Positions 1 to 62,419 of a stretch of DNA of 64,000 bases are shown in pieces. Origin of the DNA: Alteromonadales bacterium alter-6D02 (lineage in GTDB: Bacteria; Pseudomonadota; Gammaproteobacteria; Enterobacterales; Psychrobiaceae); contig PIZK01000008.1 in the NCBI GenBank assembly GCA_002835545.1, forward strand, positions 62,001-126,000. Direction: 5' to 3'. The notes below the pieces were generated by a model, which was given only the letters and a program-made list of their open reading frames with translations, ran no database searches and was not told the origin of the DNA. The position numbers were made by a program, and so were the translations under genes. How positions within the stretch are numbered: position 1 is the stretch's first letter; each line of letters starts with the position of its first letter.

Positions 1-3000
1 AGTTGCGTGATCGCACAGCGATTGAGCGCCAACTTTCATCTGACGGACTCGCGCAAGATAAAGTGTATTACCAAGTTGCAATGCCTGAATTACAAGGCGC
101 TAGTCAACCTTTAGTCATTAGCACGGCCGCGCAAGCGAGTGATGACCCATTGACCGGCATTCGAATACAAGGAGTGACTGCGGAGCATAGTGGCATCAGT
201 TCGTTATTAACTCGAATTGACCGTTGGTATCAACTTAAGAAAAAGAAAAATGCCGAAAAGCGGTTAGGGATTATTTATTATAATCATCCGCCGGGGCGGC
301 ATAATATCGGTGCAGATAACCTAGATGTCCCTGCATCATTATGGCAAATCTTAAATGAGCTTAAAGCGGCAGGCTATCACACAGGCGATTTACCTGAATC
401 TCAACAGGCGCTGCTTGATATGATGCAAGCTCGTGGGGTTAATTTACCTCGCGATGTTGGTGCTTTAACAGCGATGAGTAAAGATATCGCTTATTTATCG
501 ACTACGCAGTACAGTCAATGGTTTGAGACTTTACCGGCAACGGTTCAGCGAGAGATGGAGCAAGGTCCTTTTGGTTTACTGCATGAGCAATTAAGCGCAG
601 CGATTGATGCTGGAGAGTATCAATTAGCAGATGATGCTCTTCATCATACCATGGAAGAAATGCATCACTTATTAGAGGGCGTTGATCATAAGGGACGCAC
701 TCGCGCCTTAGCGCTACTTGATAAACTAGAGCAATGTTATCTTAGTGCGATTAAGGCGCATGCGAATACCCAATGTATGAGTCAAGCCCCTGCGATTATT
801 ACCGCATTACAGCAAACAGGTATTGAAGGCCTTGGCGGTTGGGGAAAAGCGCCAGGGCAAGTAATGACCTATCAAGGTAAGCTGCTGCTGCCTGGGTTAA
901 CGTTCGGTAATATCTTTATTGGTCCACAGCCACCTCGCGGCTGGGAAATCAATGAAGAGTTATTACATGCTAATTTGGCCTTTCCACCTCCCCATCAATA
1001 CTTAGCGTTTTATCATTTCTTACGAGATCAATTTAAAGTCGATGCCTTGGTTCACCTAGGACGGCATTCAACTTATGAGTTTTTACCGCGTCGTTCTGTC
1101 GGTCTTGCTAAAGATGACTACTCTCGCATTATTGCCGGAGACGTTCCGGGCGTTTATCCCTATATTGTTGATGGGGTCGGTGAAGGTATTCAAGCGAAAC
1201 GGCGTGGCCTTGCCGTGATGGTTGATCACTTGACGCCACCATTAGCGAGCACCCCGTTATATGATGAACTATTGCAGCTGCGACAGATGATTGAAAGTTT
1301 TGAGGTTAGCCATGGCAGTGGTAATGAGGCTGTTGCGACACGATTAGTTAAGCAGATTAGAGAAAAAGTGGACTCGTTGGAGCTCAAAGAAGAGTTAGCT
1401 CAAGCCATGTCGGCAGAGTTGGCTATTATGGGTATAAGCTTTGATGAAGTTGATGATGATATGTTGGTTCATGAGGTTGGACACTACCTGACAGACTTAC
1501 AAGAGCGTTTTATGCCACTGGGCTTGCATATTTTTGGTCAAGACTGGCAACAAAACGCGGTTGATATGATGATTAACTCAATGTTAACCCCCCAAGAGCA
1601 ACAAGATGAGACGTTAACACAAAATCTATTACAAAAATTAACCGCGTCACCACAGGCTGAAATGAATGCGCTGATCAATGGTTTAAATGGTGGCTATGTC
1701 TCTCCAGGGCAAGGTAATGATCCAATTCGTAGCCCGGCTAGCCTGCCGACAGGGAGAAATTTTTACGCACTTGATAGTTCGCTTATCCCAAGTCGCACAG
1801 CATGGCAAATTGGTCAAGAAATGGCGCAATCAGCCCGTAACAATAACAGCCAACAAGCAGAAAAACGTGAAGCGTTAATCTTATGGGCATCTGACGTTGT
1901 GCGAGATGAAGGAGTGATGATTGCATTTGGCCTCGATATGCTGGGATTAGAGCCAATTTGGAACAGCCGTGGTTTAGTTAAAGGCTTAAAACGTCAATCG
2001 ATGAATAATACACAAGGCGTAAAGGGCGATAAAATAACACGCGTACGTCGTGATGTCGTTTTTACTACGTCAGGACTCTTTAGGGATTTGTATGGTCAAC
2101 AAATGTTGTTGCTTGATCGAGCAACACTTATGGCTATTGATGCCAGTGCCGATACGATTCGCCACGATTACCCTGCGTTAACCTTGGCGCTGGCTCATAC
2201 ATTAGCGCCTTTGGGCAAAGAGGCCGTTGGCGGTCAAGAGTCCTTAGCTGTCAACCAAGTAGCTGCTCATTGGGTGAACGATGCCCGTGAATTACTGGCT
2301 AGTGGTCAGAAAGCTGAAGAAGCGGGTGTTAGTGCAAGTTTACGCGTTTTTGGTGATGCGCCTGGCAGCTATGGCGCTGGGATAAATCGTTTAGTCGAGC
2401 GCTCGGGAGCTTGGGAAAAACGTGAAGAGCTTGCGAATGTATTCATGCGTCGTTTAGGCCATAGTTATGGCTTAAATTCATTTGGCCTACCGCAGCAAAA
2501 TACCTTTAAGCGTATTCTTGGTGATGTGGAGAACACTTACCTAGGTCGTTCAAGCAACCTCTATGGCTTAATTGATAATAACGATGCCTTTGATTACCTT
2601 GGCGGGCTAAGTTTGACTGTAGAAACCCTGACAGGGCAAGCACCAAATAACTTTGTCATTGATCACGCTGATCCCAATCAAGTGAAAACTAGGCCATTGG
2701 GGTTAGCGTTACGCCAAGAATTACGAGGACGCTTTTTAAACCCTGAGTGGCTCAAAGGGCAAATGAAGCATGATTATGCGGGTGCCAGAACCATGGGTAG
2801 TGAGTTCTTAGAATATTTGTGGGGTTGGCAAGTGACGAACCCGACTCTGGTTGGCGACTGGGCATGGGAAGAGGTTAAGGCTGTTTATATCGACGATCGC
2901 TATGAATTGCAATTAGACGAGTTTTTAGCGCGGGGGCATAACGCTCATGTCAAAAGTAATATGTTAGCCATTATGCTGGTGGCTATCCATAAAGACTTTT

Positions 3001-3431
3001 GGCAAGCCGATGCAACAACAACAGCGCAACTCGCTAGCGAGTTCGCTGAGTTAGTGGCATTAAACGGTTTGCCGGGAAGTGGACATACTGACCCCGATAA
3101 TTCGATGTTACCTTGGCTTGAACAACACTTGGCTACCGAGCAATGGCAAGGTATCGCTGCTGCTGTGGCTAAGGCAAAAGGTGATAACTCCTCATCTTCA
3201 GAGATCGTTGAAACTCACCGTATTGTTGAGGTTTCTGCACAGCTTGACGAAGGGGTAGCTATAAATCCTTCGTCATCGCAAGATAATGTCGAGCCATCCA
3301 GTGTCGAAGCTGATAACACGTGGTACTGGTGGCTTAGTACACTGGTTATTTTATTAGTCTGCGGTGGTTTTTATCGTGGGACACAGCAATCGAGGGCCTT
3401 AGTCCGCCAACAACAGAAAACAGGTAATTAA
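1..3431 (+). CDS. cobN: CobN-like metallo-tetrapyrrole chelatase large subunit, membrane anchored (5' partial)
   Basis: The reading frame is open from the window edge and codons begin at base 3, so the start lies upstream; 1142 residues are visible, against roughly 1250-1400 for the family. It belongs to the CobN/BchH family, whose large subunits bind the tetrapyrrole during metal insertion. The family core around visible residues 350-415 is recognisable ([14 protein letters not shown], then [20 protein letters not shown]). Classical CobN/BchH proteins usually read HGTxEWLPGK there, so this is a divergent branch. The C-terminus is also unlike classical CobN: an acidic, Ser-rich linker (about residues 1055-1100) leads to one transmembrane helix (about 1103-1120) and a basic tail. 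An ExbB-like gene follows after 2 bases and then DUF2149, a combination also seen beside HmuS-type CobN homologues. Family membership is firm. Whether the substrate is cobalt/corrin or another tetrapyrrole is open. Confidence 0.85.
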
Positions 3432-3433
3432 TC

Positions 3434-3892
3434 ATGGATTATGGAATGCTATTGGGCTGGTTACATCAATTTGTCGCTTTGTTACTTTACCCAGTGATCA
3501 TCACCTTAGCTATCGCATTAATGGCGACACTGTGGGAGTTAGGTATGGCGAGCTGTGAGCGGCTCTCTACCCTTAGGCAATTTGAACGGGTACAACAGTT
3601 GGCATCAGCTAAACACCAGTTCCAACGCCACGCGACCAAGCGATTAGAACGTGTTGATTTACTCGCTCGCTCAGGGCCAATTTTAGGGCTGATGGGAACA
3701 TTGATCCCGTTAGGGCCAGGCCTCACCGCGTTAGGTACTGGTAATATCGATATATTAGCCACGGCATTAACTGTTGCTTTTGATACGACGGTGGTGGGAT
3801 TACTGATTGGCTTGGTGGCCTATACTATTGGGCGCTTACGTCGTCGCTGGTATGAGCAAACATGGCAAGCTTTGAGTGATGTGCCCGAGTGA
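3434..3892 (+). CDS. MotA/TolQ/ExbB proton-channel family protein, CobN-associated
   Basis: This 152-residue inner-membrane protein has a first hydrophobic segment at about residues 8-32 and two more at about 80-100 and 112-135. The signature [17 protein letters not shown], followed by a second helix [14 protein letters not shown]-like in character, matches the pore region of ExbB/TolQ/MotA, which convert the proton motive force into mechanical work on a partner. It starts 2 bases after the CobN-like gene and overlaps the 5' region of the DUF2149 gene, so the three are almost certainly co-translated. It is shorter than stand-alone ExbB (about 240 residues) and lacks the large cytoplasmic loop. 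Its role as energiser of the CobN-like protein is inferred from context. Confidence 0.85.
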
Positions 3893-3903
3893 GGAGTAGT
3901 AAT

Positions 3904-4233
3904 ATGAACGATAAGCCTTCGTGGCAATCTTCGCACTTTGACGAGCAAGATAATGACCCGTTAGCAGGGTTCGCTAATATTATGGATGTGATGCTAGTGT
4001 TTGCGCTTGGTTTAATGCTGGCTCTTGTCGCCCAGAGTCAGGAGCTCAGAGCTCACTTATCAATAGAGCCTGAACCAGGGCAAAAGACTGAAGTCACCAC
4101 TGGCAGTGAGTTAGTGAATGCACCTGAGTCACTTAATCAGGCTTTGAGTGGGCAAGCCAACGGTATGGAGTCATTAGGGCAAGTATATAAAGATCCAAAA
4201 ACAGGGAAGTTAATTTTAATAAGTACTGATTAG
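3904..4233 (+). CDS. DUF2149 family protein, ExbD/TolR-like partner
   Basis: This 109-residue protein has a single N-terminal transmembrane helix (about residues 22-42) after the motif DPLAGFANIMDVMLVF. That arrangement recalls the N-terminus of ExbD/TolR, where a conserved Asp lies at the start of the helix. The C-terminus ends with GQVYKDPKTGKLILI, the typical DUF2149 ending. I start it at the ATG at 3904, which has GAGGAG seven bases upstream; an in-frame GTG at 3889 would overlap the ExbB-like stop and has no such site. It is the third gene of the CobN-ExbB-DUF2149 unit and probably forms the stator/stalk with the ExbB-like protein. The molecular function of DUF2149 is not established. 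Confidence 0.8.
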   Translation: MNDKPSWQSSHFDEQDNDPLAGFANIMDVMLVFALGLMLALVAQSQELRAHLSIEPEPGQKTEVTTGSELVNAPESLNQALSGQANGMESLGQVYKDPKTGKLILISTD

Positions 4234-4297: not shown

Positions 4298-4939
4298 ATG
4301 AACCGACTGTTTAATGCAGTAGAGCGTGACGTGTTTAAAGATATTTTACGTTTACGTCGTGATGTTAGGGGTAACAAGTTTACCCAACAACCTGTGCCCG
4401 ATGACGTCATCGAGCAATTGATAGATGCTGCTATGCTTGCTCCGTCTGTCGGCTATTCACAACCATGGCAGCTGGTTGTCATTAAAAGTCAGGCTGTTAA
4501 GCAAAAAGTATATCAAAGTTTTTGTCAAAAAAGTAAGCAAGAAAAAGAGCTATTCCCTCCTGATAAACAAGAGCAGTATCAGAAGTTTAAGTTAGAAGGG
4601 ATCATAGAATCACCGATTAATATTGCGGTGTTCTATCAGCGTCCCGATGCACCTATATTAGGACAAACAGCGATGAAAGAGACTGGTAAATATAGTGTGG
4701 TTTGTGCCATTCAGAATATGTGGCTGATGGCTAGAGCGTTAAATGTTGGTATGGGCTGGGTCAGTATCCTTGATCCTCAAGTGGTTAAAAATGCCGTGAA
4801 CGCCCCTGAAAATAGCGAACTCATTGGCTATTTATGCATTGGCTATGTTGATGAATTCCTTGAGCAGCCCGAGCTGAAAACGGCTGGTTGGCAACAACAA
4901 AAGAGTCGTCAACAAACGGTGTTTAACGACAGCTTTTAA
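4298..4939 (+). CDS. bluB: 5,6-dimethylbenzimidazole synthase BluB
   Basis: BluB is a flavin-destroying, nitroreductase-fold enzyme that converts reduced FMN and oxygen into 5,6-dimethylbenzimidazole, the lower ligand of B12. At 213 residues the length fits. The family N-terminus is clear: RRDVRGNKF, then PVPDDVIEQLIDAAMLAPSVG and SQPWQ, matching the FMN-binding RRDVR...APSVGxxQPW pattern of BluB rather than generic nitroreductases. It lies 64 bases after the DUF2149 gene on the same strand and overlaps the end of the convergent cobD by 17 bases (4923-4939). It implies aerobic lower-ligand synthesis in a cell that also carries the nucleotide-loop assembly genes nearby. Confidence 0.9.
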   Translation: MNRLFNAVERDVFKDILRLRRDVRGNKFTQQPVPDDVIEQLIDAAMLAPSVGYSQPWQLVVIKSQAVKQKVYQSFCQKSKQEKELFPPDKQEQYQKFKLEGIIESPINIAVFYQRPDAPILGQTAMKETGKYSVVCAIQNMWLMARALNVGMGWVSILDPQVVKNAVNAPENSELIGYLCIGYVDEFLEQPELKTAGWQQQKSRQQTVFNDSF

Positions 4940-5957
4940 GTATTTTTTTCAATGTTTGGCCCAGCCGCGGTAACTGCTCTGGGCATGGGATACCAAAGCG
5001 CAGCGCTTGTTGGTTATCGGTTAAGCGTACATAGATGCCCCGTTGACACAATGCTTGATATATCAATGGCGCTACAGTGTTAGATGAAAAGGTGACGGTT
5101 TGAAACAGCGTTGTCCCCTTGATGCTTATCGTACTATCGTGTGCAAAGCACTCGAAGAGTAACTTGCCAAGCTGTTGACTGTCATTAATTAAATTTGATT
5201 GTTGTTGCTGTTGCCAAGAAATATTTTGCAAGGCGTGCTGTGCAATATATTGTGCTGGGCCGTTAACCTGCCACGGACCTAGAGTTTCATTTAATAGCTT
5301 GAGCCAGTGTTGATTAGCGACAACAAAACCTATTCTAATGCCTGCAAGGCCAAAAAACTTACCGAAGGAACGCAAAATGAGAGTGCTTTGGGCGGTTAAG
5401 GTACTCGATAGGGATTGGGTTGGGGTGATGACGTCCATAAAGGCTTCATCGAGAACGAGTAAACCTCCAAGTTTATCGATTTTGAGTTGGTAGTCAGTTA
5501 ACTCATCACGGTTAAAGAGCTTCCCCGTCGGGTTATTTGGGTTAATGACGACTAAAACACAGTGCGGTGTTAATTGAGCCAGCTCAGGTAATTGTTCATG
5601 GTAATGCGCCACGGTATAACCAGCGTTAACCCATGCTTGTTGGTGTTCTTTATAGCCGTGTAAGGGTAAATAAACGATAGAGTTAACAGAACATTGCTGC
5701 CGCCACAAGCTAGGTAGCGCCTTGATCACTGCTTGGCTGCCATTGGTGACCAACAATTGTTGTGCTTGATAATAGTGCTGTGCAGCAATCGTTAGTTGCT
5801 CATTAGGCTGAGGTAGCTGTTGCCATAAGCTCGTTGGAATATCTGGAATGGGGTAGCTATAAGGGGCAATTCCAGTTGATAAGTCTAGCCAGTTTGATTC
5901 GGGGATATTAAATGCTGCTGCGACTTTTTGTAGTTGGCCGCCATGTATTAATGCCAT
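4923..5957 (-). CDS. cobD: L-threonine-O-3-phosphate decarboxylase (CobD/CobC-type, PLP)
   Basis: This 344-residue fold-type I PLP enzyme makes (R)-1-amino-2-propanol phosphate, the linker joining the corrin ring to the nucleotide loop. The N-terminal IHGGQL...WLDLSTGIAPYSYP is typical of CobD/CobC and separates it from histidinol-phosphate aminotransferases. NPNNPTG (about residues 139-145), LDEAF (169-173) and the Schiff-base lysine K200 in RSFGKFFGLAGIRIGF are all present. It is the last gene of the - strand operon cobC-cbiB-cobD, 9 bases after cbiB. Nomenclature differs between the Salmonella (cobD) and Pseudomonas (cobC) pathways. Confidence 0.9.
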   Translation of the reverse strand: MALIHGGQLQKVAAAFNIPESNWLDLSTGIAPYSYPIPDIPTSLWQQLPQPNEQLTIAAQHYYQAQQLLVTNGSQAVIKALPSLWRQQCSVNSIVYLPLHGYKEHQQAWVNAGYTVAHYHEQLPELAQLTPHCVLVVINPNNPTGKLFNRDELTDYQLKIDKLGGLLVLDEAFMDVITPTQSLSSTLTAQSTLILRSFGKFFGLAGIRIGFVVANQHWLKLLNETLGPWQVNGPAQYIAQHALQNISWQQQQQSNLINDSQQLGKLLFECFAHDSTISIKGTTLFQTVTFSSNTVAPLIYQALCQRGIYVRLTDNQQALRFGIPCPEQLPRLGQTLKKILKSCR

Positions 5958-5966
5958 CGACTTTCC

Positions 5967-6962
5967 TTATAAAATGAATAATACACACTGTGCTGCGAAC
6001 AAAACCAGTAGCAATGTACCGCTGGCGCGCCTGACCACATTGACGCTGCGCGGAATATCTTGCACCGTTACAGCTTGACCCTGACCTAAAGTGGGGGACG
6101 TTATTGTCGCTCCGTGATATTGTGCGCTACCCCCGAGCGTACGAGAGATTACTGTCGCACCAGCCGCCATTACCCAGCCGCCATTGTGACTTTTATATTG
6201 ATTACCTTGCTGGTAAGCATTTTTTAAACTCAACCAAAAAGGGCGCTGTAATGCGTAAAGCAGTGTGGTGCATTTACCAGAAATAAAGCCTAATACATCA
6301 TCCAAGCGAGCGGCTGCATAACCAAAAGATAAAAAGCGTGTCGTTTTATAACCCCACATTGCATCGAGTGTATTTGCCAGGCGATGGGTAATCACTAATG
6401 GTATACCACCCACAAGGTAATAAACCAGTGAGGCGATCACGGCGTCGTGACCATTCTCAAGCATCGATTCGACAGTTGCTCTAGACATTTGCTCTGGGGT
6501 TAATTGGCTAGTGTCACGGCTTACTAAATAACTGGTGTAATGGCGAGCCGTGGCTAAATCGTCTTGTTGCAATGGTACATAAACTTGCTGGGCATGTTGG
6601 GCTAGACTGTTCAGTCCAATGGCCAAGTATAAGATAAAACCATCGAGTAGAATTTGCAGGTACCAAGGCAATTCATTTAGCCAGAGTAAGTAAACAGCCG
6701 GCAATGGGAGCACTAGCAAGCACCAGCTTAACCCTCCTATGAATATCGCCTTAATTGACCTTTGGTCATCTTTAAGGTACTGACTATTAAAGCTTAATTT
6801 TTTTTCTAACTGATTGGCTAGATTGCCGAAACCGACTAAATAATGAAAGCGCCTGGCCTCGCCGAGCCAATGATCTAGACCTAGCGCTAGCAATACGGTT
6901 AAGCATAAAGAAAACGCTGCTAATGTGTCTAATAGCCAAGTTAATTCGATATTGTCTATCAT
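5967..6962 (-). CDS. cbiB: Adenosylcobinamide-phosphate synthase CbiB
   Basis: CbiB is an integral membrane enzyme that attaches aminopropanol phosphate to adenosylcobyric acid. The protein has 331 residues and several hydrophobic helices (about 10-28, 75-100, 150-170 and 310-330). The family core ATVESMLENGHDAVIASL, then HRLANTLDAMWGYK and AAARLDDVLGFI, is intact. It lies between cobC (26 bases upstream) and cobD (9 bases downstream), which supplies its aminopropanol-phosphate substrate. Assignment is secure from motif and context. Confidence 0.92.
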   Translation of the reverse strand: MIDNIELTWLLDTLAAFSLCLTVLLALGLDHWLGEARRFHYLVGFGNLANQLEKKLSFNSQYLKDDQRSIKAIFIGGLSWCLLVLPLPAVYLLWLNELPWYLQILLDGFILYLAIGLNSLAQHAQQVYVPLQQDDLATARHYTSYLVSRDTSQLTPEQMSRATVESMLENGHDAVIASLVYYLVGGIPLVITHRLANTLDAMWGYKTTRFLSFGYAAARLDDVLGFISGKCTTLLYALQRPFWLSLKNAYQQGNQYKSHNGGWVMAAGATVISRTLGGSAQYHGATITSPTLGQGQAVTVQDIPRSVNVVRRASGTLLLVLFAAQCVLFIL

Positions 6963-6988: not shown

Positions 6989-7639
6989 CTAACCTATTTG
7001 GCTTTTGCATAAGGTTAAATAGGGAGGCTTCGATTCAAAATTTAATTTTATCACCGCGCCATTCTTAAACAGCTCAAAGGCGTTATTGCTGCTTTGATGG
7101 CCCAGAACATGCAGCAAACAACGTAATGCTTCACCATGAACGATTATTAAAACGTTTTGTTGAGCAGCGCTATTCGTTATGTCTTGAGCAATGCTAATTA
7201 AAGCGTGATAAAGGCGTTCGCCACAGGCTAAAGCGCTCTCGCCGTTAATTATATTGAGTGTTGTGACTTGTTGTAGGGTTTCCCTATAGGTCGTGAGTGA
7301 CTGTAATAATGAAACATATTTACCTTGCCACTCACCGAGATCTCTCTCGATTAACTCATTGACTACAATGTGATTTACAGGGATATGTTGTTGGCAGATT
7401 GATGCGGTTTTAACGGCTCGCCCTAACGGTGAAGACACAATTAAAGTAATATCTATTGTGGCCAGTGTAGTCGCTAACTGATGAGATTGCTGTTGTCCTA
7501 ATGTTGTCAGGTCACTGTCTAAATGCCCTTGCAGTCGTTGGTCCAGATTCCACTGGGTTTCTCCGTGGCGAGCTAAATATAAAGTGGTTGGCATCGTTAC
7601 ATTCATTATTTGATTCGGCTGGCAGGATACATAAATCAT
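6989..7639 (-). CDS. cobC: Histidine phosphatase family protein, probable alpha-ribazole phosphatase CobC
   Basis: The protein has 216 residues as drawn. The phosphohistidine motif LYLARHGETQWN sits near the N-terminus, with the second histidine in IIVHGEALRCLL at about residues 165-176. In the cobalamin pathway this fold removes the 5'-phosphate of alpha-ribazole phosphate or adenosylcobalamin-5'-phosphate. The family alone (shared with phosphoglycerate mutases) would be ambiguous, but as first gene of an operon with cbiB and cobD the CobC role is likely. The start is uncertain: the ATG at 7639 gives a 15-residue extension, ATGs at 7606 and 7594 are alternatives, and none has a strong ribosome-binding site. 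Starting at 7594 would put the RHG motif in its usual position. Confidence 0.8.
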   Translation of the reverse strand: MIYVSCQPNQIMNVTMPTTLYLARHGETQWNLDQRLQGHLDSDLTTLGQQQSHQLATTLATIDITLIVSSPLGRAVKTASICQQHIPVNHIVVNELIERDLGEWQGKYVSLLQSLTTYRETLQQVTTLNIINGESALACGERLYHALISIAQDITNSAAQQNVLIIVHGEALRCLLHVLGHQSSNNAFELFKNGAVIKLNFESKPPYLTLCKSQIG

Positions 7640-7730: not shown

Positions 7731-7936
7731 CTAGGTGTCTTCATTTTAATCATGCCCATGCAACCTAATGTAAGGGGACTGATTAAGCGCTTGAAGGTGA
7801 AACGTGAAACTGGTGAGAAGCCAGTACTGCCCCCGCAACGGTAACTGTGAGCAGCAACAATAACCACTGTATTGTCAATAATATGGGAAGGTGTTGCATT
7901 AGCGATGAACAGAAGTCCGGAGACCGGCCTAATCAC
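7731..7936 (+). ncRNA. Cobalamin (AdoCbl-type) riboswitch
   Basis: The + strand shows the conserved blocks in the right order and spacing: CTGCCCCCGCAACGGTAA (near 7827), ACCACTG (7863), TGGGAAGGTG (7884) and AGCGATGAACAGAAGTCCG, followed by the B12 box GTCCGGAGACCGGCC (about 7915-7929). It lies about 150 bases upstream of the btuM-like gene and so should repress the btuM-cbiA-cobO-btuB operon when adenosylcobalamin is plentiful. The 5' limit is approximate. I could not assign a clear terminator, so control may act on translation or through the structure between 7940 and 8085. Confidence 0.9.
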
Positions 7937-8087
7937 ACTCGACAACTGCGGTGGGCGGTCATTCAGAGCGACGATAATATCATGCGCAACTAGCAGGTTA
8001 GTGGCGTAGTTAAGCTATTGCTTAAGCTTCAAGCAGCGTATATTCTCGCCCTTTGATTTATAGCCCCAGATTTTTTAATGGAGCGCT

Positions 8088-8696
8088 ATGAAATTATCGA
8101 CCTCTCAATCACCCAATGCCATGTTAATAGCCGTATTAGCGATATTAACAGTGTTGATGTTGGTGACTCGAACGCATCATTTCGCTTCATTTGATCAGCT
8201 ACCAAGTGCATCTACAGCAATATTCTTTTTAGCAGGAATGTACTTGCGCCGATTGAGTGCTTTTTGGTTTTTTTATCTATTGTCAATTACCTTAGATCTG
8301 TCATCGGCTTATGTCCGAGGAGATTTTAGCAGTTGCTTAAGCCCATCTTACCCATTGCTAGCGCTTAGTTATGCATTAATGTTTGGTGCTGGTTTTTATG
8401 CCAAACCAAATTGGCAGCACAGTGCTTTGTTGATAAACATTATTAAACTAACGCTAGTGTTGTATGCCGCAACTACTGTCGCATTTTTTATTTCAAATGG
8501 TAGTTATTACGCGTTTTCGGGGCGATTTGAGCCGCTGTCATGGCAAGCCTATAGCATGCGTTTCGATAAGTATTATCTGCGCTCAATTACCAACCCTGTG
8601 TTCTACGTTGTTGTCGCAACGGCTATCCACTTTGTGATTGCGCGGTTGTTAGTAAAGCCATCACCAACGCACGGAGCAATTAACCACCATGACTAG
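8088..8696 (+). CDS. btuM: BtuM-like cobalamin transporter (solitary ECF-type S component)
   Basis: This 202-residue membrane protein has about five or six helices (roughly 11-27, 42-56, 58-74, 88-105, 112-133 and 165-188). It has the features I associate with the BtuM family: a THHF segment after the first helix, LPSASTAIFFLAGMYLRR, and a cysteine (C83) in SSCLSPSYPLLALSYALMFG. That cysteine corresponds to the cobalt-ligating cysteine described for BtuM near residue 80. It is the first gene after the B12 riboswitch and overlaps cbiA by 8 bases, which supports a role in B12 or corrinoid uptake across the inner membrane. No BtuCD-type ABC genes are in the window. The family call rests on remembered motifs, hence the moderate confidence. 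Confidence 0.7.
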   Translation: MKLSTSQSPNAMLIAVLAILTVLMLVTRTHHFASFDQLPSASTAIFFLAGMYLRRLSAFWFFYLLSITLDLSSAYVRGDFSSCLSPSYPLLALSYALMFGAGFYAKPNWQHSALLINIIKLTLVLYAATTVAFFISNGSYYAFSGRFEPLSWQAYSMRFDKYYLRSITNPVFYVVVATAIHFVIARLLVKPSPTHGAINHHD

Positions 8697-10038
8697 CTCA
8701 ACCGAAACAGTTACATCGGCTCAGTGCCCCGCATTAATCGTATCAGCACCGTCTTCGGGCTCGGGAAAAACTACCGTCACCGCAGCGCTTGCGCGTTATC
8801 ATCGCCAACAAGGGCGCAAGGTGACAGTATTTAAGGTTGGGCCTGATTTTATTGACCCGATGATTTTACAGCAGGCCAGCGGTGAGCGAGTTTATCAATT
8901 GGATTTGTGGCTGGTAGGTGAAGATGGCTGCCGTGAATTATTGCATCAGGCTGCGCAGCGCTCAGATCTTATTTTAATTGAAGGGGTGATGGGGCTGTTT
9001 GATGGTACGCCAAGCAGTGCAGACTTAGCTGAGTTTTTTAATATTCCCGTTTTAGCCGTAATTGATGCTAGTGCCATGGCACAAACCTTTGCTGCTGTTA
9101 CTTATGGCTTAGCTCATTATCGACCTGGATTACCCTTTGCTGGTGCCATTGCTAATCGAGTTAACACGCCAAGACATCAAGAGATCCTACAAAGCTGTTT
9201 ACCACCAGAAATTCCATTTTTTGGGCGTTTGCCAAAAGATAGTGAAATCACCTTACCCGAGCGTCATTTGGGATTAGTTCAAGCGCAAGAGCTAGCGACG
9301 ATCGACAGACAGCTTGATGGCAGTGCAGCGCATATTGCTACGACAGGTTTAGCCGTTTTACCCGAATGCGTCACTTTTGCAGCGGTTAAACAAACTAAGG
9401 GTGTCATGGCAGAACAACCATTACTTGGCACTCGTATTATCATCATTAACGATCTGGCGTTTAACTTTATTTATGCTGCTAACATCGATTTTTTAACGGC
9501 GGCAGGTGCAGACTTAGTCTATTGCTCTGCTTTACATGACGGCCATCTACCTCAAGGTGATGTGCTGTATATCCCAGGTGGCTACCCTGAGCTTTATGCA
9601 CAGCAATTAAGTGAGAACCAATCATTTATTGCGGATATTAAAGAGTTTGTAGAGCAACAGAAAGCGGTAGTCGCCGAATGTGGTGGGATGTTATACCTCC
9701 TTGAGCAGTTAACTGACTTGGAGGGCAAACAACATGCCATGGTGGGTGTTCTGCCTGGGCAAGCCGTTATGCAGAAAAAACTAGCTGCTATTGGTTCTCA
9801 GTACATGGTATTGCCATTGTTGGGAGAAGGTGAGGACGGTGTTATTCGTGGTCATAGCTTCCATTATTCCACCGCAGAGATAGCATTGCCGCCAATAGGT
9901 CAGTCGAAGCACCACCCAACAGAGCGTGATGGTGAGTATGCCTATCAGCAGGGCAATATTGTTGCGTCGTATATGCATTGGTACTTACCGAGTAACCCTA
10001 AGCTCGCCGTTGCGTTATTTTCTCAACAAAAGAATTAA
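8689..10038 (+). CDS. cbiA: Cobyrinate a,c-diamide synthase (CbiA/CobB)
   Basis: This 449-residue glutamine-dependent amidotransferase amidates the a and c side chains of cobyrinate. The N-terminal synthetase domain carries the P-loop SAPSSGSGKTTV (residues 19-30) and KVGPDFIDP (49-57). The C-terminal class I glutaminase domain (about 247-445) has YIPGGYPELYAQQL, the nucleophile C331 in VVAECGGMLYL, and the terminal histidine region GHSFHYS. It overlaps the btuM-like gene by 8 bases and lies 52 bases before cobO. It could act on hydrogenobyrinate (CobB) or cobyrinate (CbiA), depending on which pathway the organism uses. The sequence does not decide this. Confidence 0.93.
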   Translation: MTSSTETVTSAQCPALIVSAPSSGSGKTTVTAALARYHRQQGRKVTVFKVGPDFIDPMILQQASGERVYQLDLWLVGEDGCRELLHQAAQRSDLILIEGVMGLFDGTPSSADLAEFFNIPVLAVIDASAMAQTFAAVTYGLAHYRPGLPFAGAIANRVNTPRHQEILQSCLPPEIPFFGRLPKDSEITLPERHLGLVQAQELATIDRQLDGSAAHIATTGLAVLPECVTFAAVKQTKGVMAEQPLLGTRIIIINDLAFNFIYAANIDFLTAAGADLVYCSALHDGHLPQGDVLYIPGGYPELYAQQLSENQSFIADIKEFVEQQKAVVAECGGMLYLLEQLTDLEGKQHAMVGVLPGQAVMQKKLAAIGSQYMVLPLLGEGEDGVIRGHSFHYSTAEIALPPIGQSKHHPTERDGEYAYQQGNIVASYMHWYLPSNPKLAVALFSQQKN

Positions 10039-10090: not shown

Positions 10091-10696
10091 GTGAGTAATG
10101 AAGAAATTAAAGCACAGCGTCATAGAGAACGTCAGCAAAAGATTAAAGCTGAAGTGGACAAGCGGATAGCCAAAGCAACAATCAAAAAAGGCGTATTGAC
10201 CGTGATCACTGGTAATGGCAAGGGAAAGTCAACTTCTGGATTTGGGACTTTGACCCGAGCTATGGGGCATGGCCTATCTGCTGGCGTGGTGCAGTTTATT
10301 AAAGGCACTAGAGAATGTGGTGAACTTAATTTATTAAAGCAGCATGGCCTTGAATATCATGTCATGGGCACTGGGTTTACATGGGAAACACAGAATAAAC
10401 AAACAGATATGTTAGCTGCTTCAGCAGCTTGGCAACAAGCAAGACTGCAGTTAGCAAACCCTAAATTAGATATCGTGTTGTTAGATGAACTAACTTACAT
10501 GGTTAAATATGGTTACGTGGAGTTAGACGATATCATTGGTGCAATTAATGATCGTCCGCCAATGCAGCATGTGATCATTACTGGGCGAGGTTGTCACCGT
10601 CGATTAATTGAATTGGCCGATACCGTATCCGAAGTACAGCCGACTAAGCACGCATTTAAAGCCGGCGTTCAAGCGCAAAAAGGCTTGGACTGGTAA
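10091..10696 (+). CDS. cobO: Cob(I)yrinic acid a,c-diamide adenosyltransferase CobO/BtuR
   Basis: This CobA/CobO-type adenosyltransferase transfers the adenosyl group of ATP to cob(I)alamin or its precursors. The protein has 201 residues, begins with the basic coil typical of the family (AQRHRERQQKIKAEVDKR), and carries the inverted P-loop VITGNGKGKSTSGFGT (about residues 37-52). VQFIKG, LDIVLLDELTYM and HVIITGRG follow in family order. Translation starts at GTG 10091 with GAAGG eight bases upstream. It is third in the riboswitch-led operon. Confidence 0.93.
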   Translation: MSNEEIKAQRHRERQQKIKAEVDKRIAKATIKKGVLTVITGNGKGKSTSGFGTLTRAMGHGLSAGVVQFIKGTRECGELNLLKQHGLEYHVMGTGFTWETQNKQTDMLAASAAWQQARLQLANPKLDIVLLDELTYMVKYGYVELDDIIGAINDRPPMQHVIITGRGCHRRLIELADTVSEVQPTKHAFKAGVQAQKGLDW

Positions 10697-10792: not shown

Positions 10793-12646
10793 ATGAAACA
10801 CAATATTTTAACCACCACTTTTATCGCATTAGGCCTGATCCCAACAGGCGTGATGGCAGCAGCTGAAATCAATGAGACGATGTTAGTCACTGCCGATCGC
10901 ACCCAACAGGAGCAATTTCTTGCACTATCTGCGACTAAGGTGATCGACAAAGCTGATATTGAAGCGATTCAACCACATAATGTAACGGATTTACTAGATC
11001 AAGTTGCCGGTATCAGTGTGGTCAACCAAGGTGGTGGTGGTCAGCAAAGTTCACTCTTTATGCGTGGTACTAACAATGGTCACACACTGGTATTAGTTGA
11101 TGGTGTACGTGTGGGTTCAGCGACATTAGGTTCAACGAGTTTTGGGGCTATGTCTGCTGACCAAATCGAGCGTATTGAAATTGTTAAAGGCCCGCGTGCA
11201 GCTCTTTGGGGTTCTGATGCGATCGGTGGTGTGATTCAAATCTTCACTAAGAAATTGCAGCAAGGTGAAGGTTCTGTGAGCGTTGGCTTAGGTAGCAACG
11301 GTTTATGGAAAGCCGCTGGTTCAGTTGGTTTTGGTAATGAAGAACATAATTTAACGGTTAATTTATCGACTGAAGAAAGTGACGGTTTTAGCGCTAAAAC
11401 TGACAGCGAAAACCCATATGAGACAGACGATGACGGTTATGATCGCCTATCGTTAGGTATGGTTGGTCAAAGCGTGTTAACTGAAGAAGTATCACTGCAT
11501 TTAGCATCACGCTGGGAGCAAGGCGGATCAGAATACGACGCTTCAAGCACTCTATATGCTAATGAACAAGAGTATGAAAACTACTTGTTACGCCTTGCGG
11601 GTCAATATCAAAACGGTGACATCTTCTCTGAACTATCAGTTGCGGCGAGTCAAGATCAGGGTGAAACGTTTGGTAATGATATCCCTAAATCAGACAGTGA
11701 TGAAATTAAAACTAAGCGTAATCAACTTTCTTGGATTGGCCAGTACAGCTTCACAGATCAAATATCAGCGGCTGCTGGTTTTGATTGGTATGATGAAGAA
11801 ATATCAACCACTAAAGACAAAGTCAGCTGGCTACCAGGTTTCCAAACATGGGCAGAAGATGAGCGTACGGTAAAAGCATTCTACTTACAAACACGTCAGC
11901 AATATGCTTCAGTGCTATTAGAGTTAGCTGTTCGTCACGATGATGTTGAGCGCCTAGACTCTGAAACAACCTATAACGCGTCGGTTGGTTATCAATTAAA
12001 TGAAGATTTATTAGTGAGCCTTAACCATTCAACTGGCTTTAAAGCGCCATCATTTAATGATTTATATTGGCCTGGTTCTGGTAACGCTGATTTAAAACCA
12101 GAAACGATCAAAAGTTACGAGCTATTAATTCGTAACCAATTTGATAGTGGTAATGTGCAATTAAGCTTCTTCGACTCAAAAGTCGATAACCTAATTGCAT
12201 GGGCACCTAATAAAACTGGGGCATGGCAACCAAGCAATATTAATGAAGCGGATATCCGTGGTGTTGAATTAACCCTAGAGCGTAGCATCGGGGAAACAAC
12301 ACACGAGTTAGCACTTGCTTACGTTGACGCTACGGACAGCAAGAAGCAATTACCTCTTGCCCGACGCCCACAAGTGACAGCAAACTATACGGTTGGTTAC
12401 CAATGGCAGGACTTCACCTTCAATGGTGTGGTTAGCTACCGTGATGAAAGCGCAGAACGCGTATCTAAAACGGCTGATATCTTAGAAGCATATTGGTTAG
12501 TTAACGCATCTGTTAATTACCAAGCAACAAGTAACCTAGCCATTGCAGCTAAAGTAAATAACTTGTTTGATGAAGAGTATGAAACGGCTAAAAATTACGT
12601 TGCCGATGGCACTAACTTCGTTGTTTCAGCGACTTATAGCTTTTAA
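10793..12646 (+). CDS. btuB: TonB-dependent vitamin B12 receptor BtuB
   Basis: This outer-membrane 22-strand barrel imports cobalamin using TonB energy. The protein has 617 residues (E. coli BtuB 614), with a signal peptide of about 23 residues ending near VMAAAE. A TonB box ETMLVTA lies at residues 28-34. The plug domain contains MRGTNNGHTLVLVDGVRVGS and IERIEIVKGPRAALWGSDAIGGV, both characteristic of BtuB. The last residue is the aromatic F expected for barrel assembly. It is the last gene of the riboswitch-led operon, with its own hairpin in the 96-base leader and a strong terminator after it. Confidence 0.92.
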   Translation: MKHNILTTTFIALGLIPTGVMAAAEINETMLVTADRTQQEQFLALSATKVIDKADIEAIQPHNVTDLLDQVAGISVVNQGGGGQQSSLFMRGTNNGHTLVLVDGVRVGSATLGSTSFGAMSADQIERIEIVKGPRAALWGSDAIGGVIQIFTKKLQQGEGSVSVGLGSNGLWKAAGSVGFGNEEHNLTVNLSTEESDGFSAKTDSENPYETDDDGYDRLSLGMVGQSVLTEEVSLHLASRWEQGGSEYDASSTLYANEQEYENYLLRLAGQYQNGDIFSELSVAASQDQGETFGNDIPKSDSDEIKTKRNQLSWIGQYSFTDQISAAAGFDWYDEEISTTKDKVSWLPGFQTWAEDERTVKAFYLQTRQQYASVLLELAVRHDDVERLDSETTYNASVGYQLNEDLLVSLNHSTGFKAPSFNDLYWPGSGNADLKPETIKSYELLIRNQFDSGNVQLSFFDSKVDNLIAWAPNKTGAWQPSNINEADIRGVELTLERSIGETTHELALAYVDATDSKKQLPLARRPQVTANYTVGYQWQDFTFNGVVSYRDESAERVSKTADILEAYWLVNASVNYQATSNLAIAAKVNNLFDEEYETAKNYVADGTNFVVSATYSF

Positions 12647-61234: not shown

Positions 61235-62419
61235 ATGTTAGTTTCCTGTATGTCACGTGTTTACCTAGCTGTATTCGTTACAGCTGTTTTAGGATACTCC
61301 AATATCGCACTTGCTAGTTCAAAACCTGAGATATCAGGCTTTGCGCGAGCCATTGTTGGGGTTGCAGATCATGATGATGTTGATGCAATTGACTATGATA
61401 AAACCCCTTCTTTAAAACCTCATAGCCTAATCGGCGTGCAAGCAGATTGGCAAATAACACAGCACTGGTCAGCAACAGCACAAATGTTGGGACGTGCTGA
61501 TCGTGATTTAAAATCGGGCATTGAATGGCTTTATGCACAATACGCTGCCGATCATGGTGTTAATTATAAGGTCGGCCGGTTACGTTCGCCGTTCTTTATG
61601 TATAGCAATGTACTTAATGTTGGTTATAGCTACCATTGGATCCAAGCCCCTAGCGAAGTGTATTCCCCTGTTTTGTTCGATCATTTTGATGGCGGTGAGG
61701 CTTCATATACCTATTTTGGTGAAGATTTTTCCGCGACAGTCAGTGGCTTTCTTGGGCAGTTTGATGGTGATGTTGAATACCTCGGCGAGCAATATACAAC
61801 CGATGTAAATACCTTTTCAGGACTAGTATTCGAAGTTTCATTTGATAAATTAAAACTACAATCTTCGATCAATCGCGGCAATATTTTTGTTAAAAACCCA
61901 ATGCTCTCACAACTCAGTGATGTCGCTGAGCAGGCTGGTTTATCAGAAGTCGCTCAAGCATTATCTATTGATGGTGAAGTGACTTATTTTCAGGTTGGCT
62001 TTAGTTATGAAACATTTGATTATTTTATTAAAGGTGAGTGGGTCGACTTCCACCATGATTTTTCGTTGTTAGCAGAAACACGGGCCAATTACATCAGTGT
62101 TGGCTATCAATTAGATAACTTATTATTTCACCTGACTGCAGCTAAGCGTGATGACGCGTTGAAACCAATGAATGACTTTATTCCGCCGATAGATGCTTTA
62201 AGCCCATTAGCAGGGCTTTATCATCAATTAAGTAATGTGCGAGCGCATAGTGATCAAGATAGCTATATTTTCGGTGTGCGTTGGGATGTGGGCGACAATA
62301 TTGCTCTTAAAGCGGAAGTGAACCATACAATTTTTGATCAAGACGATCTCGACCCTGCGTTAAGTACTCAGCCGGAAGACACGACACTTGTACTTTTGGG
62401 GGCTGAATGGGTCTTTTAA
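61235..62419 (+). CDS. Porin-like outer-membrane beta-barrel protein
   Basis: The 394-residue protein has a signal peptide (hydrophobic core about 9-26, cut after IALAS) and then alternating beta-strand sequence typical of outer-membrane barrels (WSATAQMLGRADRD, VNYKVGRLRSPFFMYSNVLN, GGEASYTYFGEDFSATVSGF). It ends in the aromatic residue F. It resembles the porin-like proteins that accompany small phosphate-binding-like proteins in marine gammaproteobacteria. The substrate is unknown. It overlaps the next gene by 13 bases, so the two are translationally coupled. ATG 61250 is an alternative start. Confidence 0.75.
   Translation: MLVSCMSRVYLAVFVTAVLGYSNIALASSKPEISGFARAIVGVADHDDVDAIDYDKTPSLKPHSLIGVQADWQITQHWSATAQMLGRADRDLKSGIEWLYAQYAADHGVNYKVGRLRSPFFMYSNVLNVGYSYHWIQAPSEVYSPVLFDHFDGGEASYTYFGEDFSATVSGFLGQFDGDVEYLGEQYTTDVNTFSGLVFEVSFDKLKLQSSINRGNIFVKNPMLSQLSDVAEQAGLSEVAQALSIDGEVTYFQVGFSYETFDYFIKGEWVDFHHDFSLLAETRANYISVGYQLDNLLFHLTAAKRDDALKPMNDFIPPIDALSPLAGLYHQLSNVRAHSDQDSYIFGVRWDVGDNIALKAEVNHTIFDQDDLDPALSTQPEDTTLVLLGAEWVF

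Follow-up and report, generated by a model that had tools for sequence, protein, structure and literature searches.

The btuS cassette and its products

This study concerns a 64,000-nucleotide (nt) stretch of contig PIZK01000008.1 of Alteromonadales bacterium alter-6D02 (positions 62,001 to 126,000; called the window), and the cassette at its left end, in which the btuS gene is followed by an exbB-like gene and a gene for a DUF2149 protein. The window opens inside btuS. The frame found there (3..3431, + strand) lacks its 5′ end and encodes the C-terminal 1142 of the 1464 amino acid (aa) residues of a CobN-like protein, predicted to be periplasmic and membrane-anchored. The whole gene was read from the genome (45 contigs, 3.99 Mb), where it starts 964 nt before the window (G000:C44:61037); residue numbers refer to the full-length protein, P0001, unless stated otherwise. 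The window frame matches PF02514 at 779.7 bits, which places BtuS in the CobN/Mg-chelatase superfamily, and a PF02514 search found BtuS to be the sole CobN homologue in its genome.

Full-length BtuS begins with a signal-peptide-like sequence (MRIILFVALLLSSLNLVAQS) and ends with a linker, a single hydrophobic helix, and a K/R-rich tail. In the structure model, the helix holding the membrane span comprises residues 1107-1139 of the window protein (3321..3419, + strand, with the K/R-rich end). By topology rules, a signal-peptide-like start and one C-terminal membrane helix imply that the body lies in the periplasm, which is almost certainly the case here, and a periplasmic body would be out of reach of ATP-driven partners. 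An earlier note, made from the letters of the window alone, had described the linker and the transmembrane helix correctly. That reader saw only the 1142 residues, and both the signal-peptide-like start and an upstream B12 riboswitch fell outside the window. Thus, the export of the body was invisible because the window cuts off the start of btuS. The upstream riboswitch is weak (RF00174, 33.5 bits against a gathering score of 31.5) and ends 135 nt before the start codon.

The exbB gene begins 2 nt after the end of btuS and encodes an ExbB/TolQ-like proton channel protein of 152 aa (3434..3892, + strand; PF01618, 34.7 bits, cut-off 22.9). By model score it is no exbB2 equivalog; it retains residues in common with a conventional ExbB. 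The third gene encodes a DUF2149 protein with an ExbD-like membrane helix (3904..4233, + strand; PF09919, 47.3 bits). Its start is either a GTG at 3889 or an ATG at 3904, as homologues favour. The helix carries a conserved Asp, found at 90/90 BtuS loci (as D33 in 68/68 rows of one alignment); in a wider alignment it is Asp in 73 of 74 rows and Glu in Runella. A single helix with an acidic residue is what ExbD and TolR have, the likeness being judged by eye against one ExbD. A full ExbD domain was considered but is not displayed by the DUF2149 model, which has a helix and a small hairpin (predicted template modelling score, pTM, 0.29) and was not used in a fold search.

Active site and position in the superfamily

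The core motif of BtuS reads RHSTYEFLP (residues 676-684; 1062..1088, + strand) and differs from that of classical CobN and BchH, as the earlier note had said. H677 aligns with H538 of HmuS and is present in all 131 rows longer than 1100 residues. The flanking R676 and S678 are confined to BtuS (91/91). The second active-site His of HmuS, H1209, aligns with D1183 (2583..2585, + strand). At this place, Asp is found in 91/91 BtuS and 13/13 CobN rows, while His is found in 3/3 HmuS and 2/2 BchH rows and in Azospirillum. A second group of CobN-like proteins, called type 1 here, is mixed (14 Asp, 5 His), and the Trichlorobacter lovleyi and Runella proteins have Asp. Of the bis-His pair of HmuS, BtuS therefore keeps the first and has Asp for the second. 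In the columns of the HmuS haem ligands M79 and H254, Met occurs in 2/91 and His in 0/91 BtuS rows, in a head region that aligns loosely. The active-site His and the KRR residues are kept in 91/91.

The model of the window part of BtuS (pTM 0.69) matches HmuS best, followed by CobN and ChlH; the Foldseek matches are 9p4s, 9d26, 7c6o, and full-length ChlH, with E values from 1e-39 to 5e-31. An unrooted tree, which has long branches, was made from 63 of 133 CobN-like proteins (687 columns, quick search). In this tree, BtuS is one clade with a support of 100, and HmuS, classical CobN, and BchH are likewise separate clades. The tree that the earlier note had proposed as a check thus sets the protein apart from all three, and its claim that this is no classical CobN is upheld by the rejection of a joint clade of BtuS and CobN (approximately unbiased test, p-AU 0.0029). 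The CobN equivalog models all score far below their cut-offs on the protein scanned without its first 322 residues. The genome search for cobS and cobT that the note had also suggested gave no match to CobS (TIGR01650) or CobT (PF06213), with ChlI/ChlD-type partners not being searched genome-wide. A classical CobN served by CobST from elsewhere in the genome was ruled out by the p-AU value and the missing cobS/cobT matches.

One branch of the tree (support 99) separates 48 rows linked to the ExbB/DUF2149 motor from 15 rows linked to AAA proteins, and the tree shows a single switch between the two kinds of partner. The neighbouring genes track the side, being either ExbB and DUF2149 or VWA/AAA genes; neither kind was found in the examined stretches of L153 and L157 (motor side) and of L163, L164, and L170 (AAA side). 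The C-terminal hydrophobic helix also follows this split: it is found in 116 of 118 motor-linked proteins (a few of them near-copies or fragments) versus 0 of 15 AAA-linked ones. It is missing from L080, which has a frame that ends early, and from the L157 protein of a Marinobacter plasmid, where the motor genes are absent too.

Distribution, gene order, and the linker motif

Is this gene arrangement common? DUF2149 was found in 21 of 369 genomes of the class to which alter-6D02 belongs, and its surroundings were inspected in the 20 other than alter-6D02. One locus (L046 of G294), with a DUF2149 match below cut-off and no CobN-like neighbour, was left out of later counts. Two kinds of CobN-like protein stand beside DUF2149: type 1, which is about 30% identical and is accompanied by TonB receptors, and the BtuS clade, which often accompanies B12 genes and has identities of 45-51% (ten aligned full-length rows). 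A pattern scan of genome contigs yielded 280 relatives, and the analysis continued with the best 80 loci (L047-L126). These are mostly from Gammaproteobacteria, with others from Nitrospirota, Nitrospinota, Arcobacter and relatives, and one metagenome-assembled genome of Myxococcota. In 78 of the best 80 loci, btuS, exbB, and DUF2149 follow one another in this order with a short gap, and thus the cassette is not a product of chance. The exceptions are L078, with the same order and a longer gap to the aligned end, and L086, which stops at a contig end. Both ExbB and DUF2149 lie behind BtuS in 79 of the 80. In L042 and L126, which are the same species by coordinates, a match to a cobA-like uroporphyrinogen methyltransferase lies between exbB and DUF2149.

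The linker of BtuS is variable except for a short motif before the membrane helix, which in alter-6D02 reads RIVEV (3219..3233, + strand) and was located from the row alignment and a pattern count. The BtuS pattern, which was widened after the rows had been viewed, matches 67/91 BtuS proteins compared with a mean of 5.9 for shuffled sequences; the first, narrower pattern matched 38/67. A different, VxGQxL-like motif is present in 22/22 rows made up of type 1 and the T. lovleyi, Runella, and Azospirillum proteins (shuffled mean 0.9). As this pattern was written after ten of its 22 rows had been viewed, both linker patterns are post hoc. The type-1 loci (L027-L034, L145-L156) hold a second motor-linked group with a mixed second site and a linker motif of its own.

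The B12 setting and the salvage pattern

The genes that follow the cassette are mostly B12 genes. The dimethylbenzimidazole synthase gene bluB (4298..4939, + strand; TIGR02476, 232 bits) lies 64 nt behind the DUF2149 gene. On the - strand are cobD for threonine-phosphate decarboxylase (4923..5957; family scan), cbiB (5967..6962; PF03186, 249.7 bits, with TIGR00380 slightly under its cut-off), and a cobC-like gene of the alpha-ribazole phosphatase family (6989..7639; below the curated cut-off). A strong B12 riboswitch (RF00174, 93.3 bits; 7768..7946, + strand) precedes a gene for a membrane protein of 202 aa (8088..8696, + strand), cobB for cobyrinate a,c-diamide synthase (8689..10038, + strand), and btuR/cobO for corrinoid adenosyltransferase (10091..10696, + strand), the latter two assigned by family scan. 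A BtuB-like TonB-dependent receptor (10793..12646, + strand) was judged from its position and a reading of its sequence, without a family scan. The earlier note's list of the surroundings, with the ExbB-like and DUF2149 genes directly behind the CobN-like gene and bluB, cbiB, and a B12 riboswitch nearby, proved accurate throughout.

No family of Pfam or NCBIfam matches the 202-aa membrane protein at E 0.001. Its tblastn relatives adjoin B12 genes in ten loci (L042, L050, L066, L099, L102, L109, L112, L118, L125, and L126). It is possibly an unrecognised part of a corrinoid or cobalt transporter.

Among 60 loci of at least 20 kb, a late B12 gene was found by tblastn in 20 (cobB in 12, btuR in 15) and a BtuB-like match in 23. 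In 7 of 91 loci, cobB lies upstream and btuR downstream of btuS, which matches the order of the late pathway steps. Rfam models were run on 24 of the 80 loci, and a same-strand B12 riboswitch was found upstream in 20: within 700 nt in 13 and at about 1.9-4.3 kb in 7, where the intervening genes were partly checked. No B12 riboswitch was found in 12 type-1 loci (stretches of 7.5-9.5 kb) or at the Runella locus, while the T. lovleyi plasmid locus does carry one.

The corrin-ring marker CbiC has no match in the alter-6D02 genome. Judged by this marker, the bacterium appears to lack corrin-ring synthesis. Of the 12 BtuS genomes in the class sample, three have CbiC (G333 among them is 82% complete), as do four of the 49 genomes, of unstated completeness, that belong to the scan loci (50 of the 80 loci were submitted). 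With two genomes common to both sets by coordinates, this gives 7 of 59 BtuS genomes with CbiC and 52 without. In Pseudomonadaceae, 84 of 148 genomes have CbiC and 12 show the three-piece PF02514 pattern typical of BtuS. CbiC occurs in 1 of these 12 (G386) versus 83 of the other 136 (Fisher p 0.00045, in a test that ignores kinship and assumes that both draws of 148 genomes are identical). BtuS mostly marks genomes without ring synthesis. A general role as the cobaltochelatase of de novo synthesis was ruled out, since CbiC is absent in 52/59 BtuS genomes.

The seven genomes with both BtuS and CbiC are of several kinds. In G386, a CobN of the classical kind is also present, accompanied by VWA/AAA-like genes. 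The cob clusters of G408 and G411 include a gene resembling sirohydrochlorin chelatase, which scores below its cut-off, and G411 carries a further CobN homologue that is split in two. In G089, G121, G236, and G399, CobG scores above its cut-off and BtuS is the sole CobN homologue; in the first three, the cassette is part of the cob cluster or adjoins it, and in G399 it is on a different contig. CobT scores 52.9 bits in G089, over its cut-off, and was not found in G121 and G236. CobG was accepted only where TIGR02435 passed its cut-off. Further tblastn neighbours resembling CobG in several Pseudomonas, Azotobacter, and Methylophaga loci were not confirmed and were left uncounted.

Proposed role of BtuS and its alternatives

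With B12 riboswitches and B12 genes around btuS and Asp in place of the second HmuS His, BtuS very probably acts on a corrinoid, which the earlier note had preferred over haem. I propose that BtuS is a class I chelatase-like protein, anchored in the inner membrane, whose periplasmic body acts on corrinoids in B12 salvage. ExbB and DUF2149 would form a proton channel of the ExbBD/TolQR type that grips BtuS by its C-terminal helix and perhaps by the linker motif, which may be a docking site for DUF2149. The channel would power cycles in which the chelatase body opens or is reset between rounds, in place of the ATP-driven CobST or ChlID partners. Cobalt would be inserted into incomplete or cobalt-free corrins arriving via BtuB, and the products would then be imported and completed by CobB, BtuR, CbiB, and CobD. 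The probability of this reading as a whole, a periplasmic corrinoid chelatase coupled to the proton motive force that inserts cobalt rather than removes it, is put at about 0.47. Of its parts, the action of the ExbB/DUF2149 motor on BtuS is reasonably probable, and insertion, given a chelatase reaction, is only slightly favoured over removal. For the earlier note's claim that the proton motive force drives the putative chelatase, the support is only indirect and comes from the superfamily split, the separate TonB-ExbB-ExbD of T. lovleyi, and the acidic residue of DUF2149.

Several points weigh against this proposal. Complete corrinoids already contain cobalt. The reaction assigned to the BtuS clade is deduced from sequence comparison, and CobB and BtuR are expected to act in the cytoplasm, unlike BtuS. 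No late B12 gene lies within reach in 40 of the 60 long loci, and four of the 24 loci searched lack a same-strand riboswitch (L049, L050, L051, and L066, with L050 having one on the opposite strand), while that of alter-6D02 is weak. The HmuS rows lack a linker motif (0/3 for VxGQxL; the BtuS pattern is absent by eye). In the Marinobacter plasmid, the motor genes and the C-terminal helix of BtuS are both missing, as if lost in one deletion. Metal removal is the reaction of HmuS, the best-studied relative (PMC12583661), and the related cassette PA1922-PA1925 belongs to the Zur regulon of Pseudomonas aeruginosa (PMC9431628, PMC8456098). Like the latter, the Runella cassette inside a hydrogenase-maturation cluster fits metal scavenging. 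Finally, recombinant HmuS without its membrane helices converted haem with NADH, with HmuU/HmuV unmentioned in the part of the report consulted (PMC12583661). Thus, a single round can proceed without a motor, and my confidence in the motor and in the overall reading was lowered since HmuS without both helices reacts without partners. The same protein stopped after 1-2 turnovers, for which its authors give other causes (PMC12583661); this halt could be explained by the missing motor.

Would BtuS rather strip imported corrinoids of cobalt or another metal while they are in the periplasm, supplying cobalt or clearing corrinoids with a wrong metal? For HmuS, which shares its architecture and partners with BtuS, de-chelatase activity has been demonstrated by experiment (PMC12583661), and its H538 is kept as H677 in BtuS. 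The Zur-controlled PA1922-PA1925 (PMC9431628, PMC8456098), the Runella cassette beside a gene annotated as a urease accessory protein, and the periplasmic location favour removal as well. However, cobalt is reported to resist extraction unless the corrin is destroyed (PMC6771967), free cobalt would be of little use for B12 in the 52 of 59 BtuS genomes without CbiC, and the riboswitches point to B12, not cobalt, as the regulator. In place of the second HmuS His stands Asp, as in CobN, and the M79/H254 ligands are not kept. In Bacteroides fragilis, a btuS1 btuS2 double mutant still released protoporphyrin (PMC6460266). Removal is therefore regarded as unlikely, and insertion is slightly preferred because of the CobN-like Asp, the four CobG genomes, the cobB-btuS-btuR order in 7/91 loci, the resistance of cobalt to removal, and the production of cobalt-free corrinoids by certain purple sulfur bacteria when cobalt is absent from the culture (PMC6771967). 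A HmuS-type haem iron de-chelatase, suggested by the shared partners and by the HmuS entries 9d26/9p4s being the nearest solved structures in sequence and fold, is very improbable, as BtuS forms a separate clade, M79, H254, and the second active-site His are absent, and a B12 riboswitch and B12 genes are found at this locus and many others. Identity with HmuS was ruled out by clade, ligands, and genomic setting.

The motor may instead belong to the receptor. ExbB and DUF2149 would energise a BtuB-type receptor with TonB, leaving BtuS as a periplasmic protein for corrinoid binding or hand-over or as a motor-free chelatase. This is the published view for HmuU/HmuV (PMC12583661) and PA1924 (PMC8456098). 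It agrees with the in vitro reaction of soluble HmuS (PMC12583661), with the BtuB-like matches in 23/60 long loci, and with TonB-like open reading frames near BtuB and BtuS in L037 and L044, noted by eye without a scan. Yet 37 of the 60 long loci have no BtuB-like match, while ExbB and DUF2149 follow BtuS in 79/80, the C-terminal helix tracks the motor, and the active-site His and KRR residues are kept in 91/91. At the T. lovleyi locus, a separate ExbB-ExbD-TonB set lies beside the cassette, so that the receptor has another energiser at hand. Archaea such as Methanosarcina acetivorans have no outer membrane. M. acetivorans was the only one of 14 control genomes with DUF2149, and its genome also encodes a PF02514 protein. 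A DUF2149 cluster of Methanosarcinales is listed as linked to TolQ in one table row (PMC9425974). Taken together, a motor for the receptor is doubtful, and a motor acting on BtuS is preferred. It is unlikely, as a wider statement, that one whole side of the superfamily consists of periplasmic chelatases driven by the proton motive force, with BtuS as the cobalt-inserting branch; ExbB/DUF2149 would then replace the AAA+ ring and pull the chelatase via linker and C-terminal helix, allowing turnover.

Relation to known systems

The name BtuS is from Rocha et al. (PMC6460266), citing Rodionov et al. 2003, where BtuS is set apart from CobN and ChlH as a proposed third type with a predicted role in metalloporphyrin salvage. 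Like that BtuS, the present protein is CobN-like (pfam02514), is neither CobN nor ChlH, and appears to be exported and membrane-attached. The printed BtuS1 and BtuS2 were tested on haem (PMC6460266), and BtuS2 has been called the HmuS of B. fragilis (PMC13227078). Hmu-like operons with a cobalamin riboswitch and without HmuY are reported for B. fragilis (PMC10100974), and a HmuS homologue of Porphyromonas gingivalis is in print (PMC13227078). In this study, BtuS denotes the proteobacterial clade; the Bacteroidota HmuS rows fall elsewhere in the tree.

BtuS resembles HmuS as described (PMC12583661) in the signal or membrane helices at both ends, the ExbB and DUF2149 partners, the H538 equivalent, and the best structural match. 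It differs in its clade, in the Asp for H1209, in the lack of M79/H254, in a B12 rather than an iron setting, and in the gene order btuS-exbB-DUF2149 without HmuT. With CobNST it shares the superfamily fold, the equivalents of H677 and Asp1183, and, in some loci, a place among cobB, btuR, and cobQ. Unlike CobN, BtuS is apparently exported, has RHST instead of the KHGN motif, lies outside the CobN clade, and comes from a genome in which no CobS/CobT was found. PA1922-PA1925 has the same set of a TonB receptor, a CobN-like protein, a proton-channel protein, and DUF2149; in contrast, it is under zinc control (PMC9431628, PMC8456098), and PA1923 itself is not among the rows of the present tree. 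Neither a motor-driven chelatase nor the salvage pattern was met in the surveyed portion of the open-licence PubMed Central literature.

Should the motor indeed drive BtuS, the proton motive force would be the power source of a metal chelatase, and the TonB-receptor role given in print to HmuU/HmuV and PA1924 would have to be revised. The proposal would also help to account for genes annotated as "cobalt chelatase" in bacteria without B12 synthesis (PMC6461909), and it would offer testable genes for the possible use of other microbes' incomplete corrinoids by salvagers. In the wider and unlikely reading, with BtuS inserting cobalt outside the cytoplasm, salvagers would use cobalt-free or early corrins from other organisms. 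In the four genomes with CobG and without CobN, the periplasm would then be the site of late cobalt insertion in de novo synthesis, perhaps following export of the corrin by an ATP-binding cassette (ABC) transporter in three clusters (ATPase in three, permease checked in one).

ABC transporter genes lie inside the cobG clusters with btuS in L040 (3792-5758), L037 (4462-5382), and L043 (between the CobG and CbiD matches). The DrrA-like ATPase scores below its cut-off in L040 and L037, and in L043 it is a tblastn match alone; the permease was scanned in L040. It is possible that this transporter is a corrin exporter.

Three plasmid loci show other arrangements. On plasmid pGLOV01 of T. lovleyi (L158, 5143-17033), two tandem B12 riboswitches precede a TonB receptor, DUF2162, ExbB, DUF2149, and CobN, and after this cassette lie the separate ExbB-ExbD-TonB genes and a second receptor. 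The plasmid of Marinobacter sp. M3C (L157, 10576-18991) has the order cobB-btuS-cobO-cobQ-bluB without exbB and DUF2149. On a Runella slithyformis plasmid (L165, 110-8144), a TonB receptor, the annotated urease accessory protein, ExbB, DUF2149, and a CobN-like protein lie in a hyp cluster. The Runella cassette is perhaps a nickel version.

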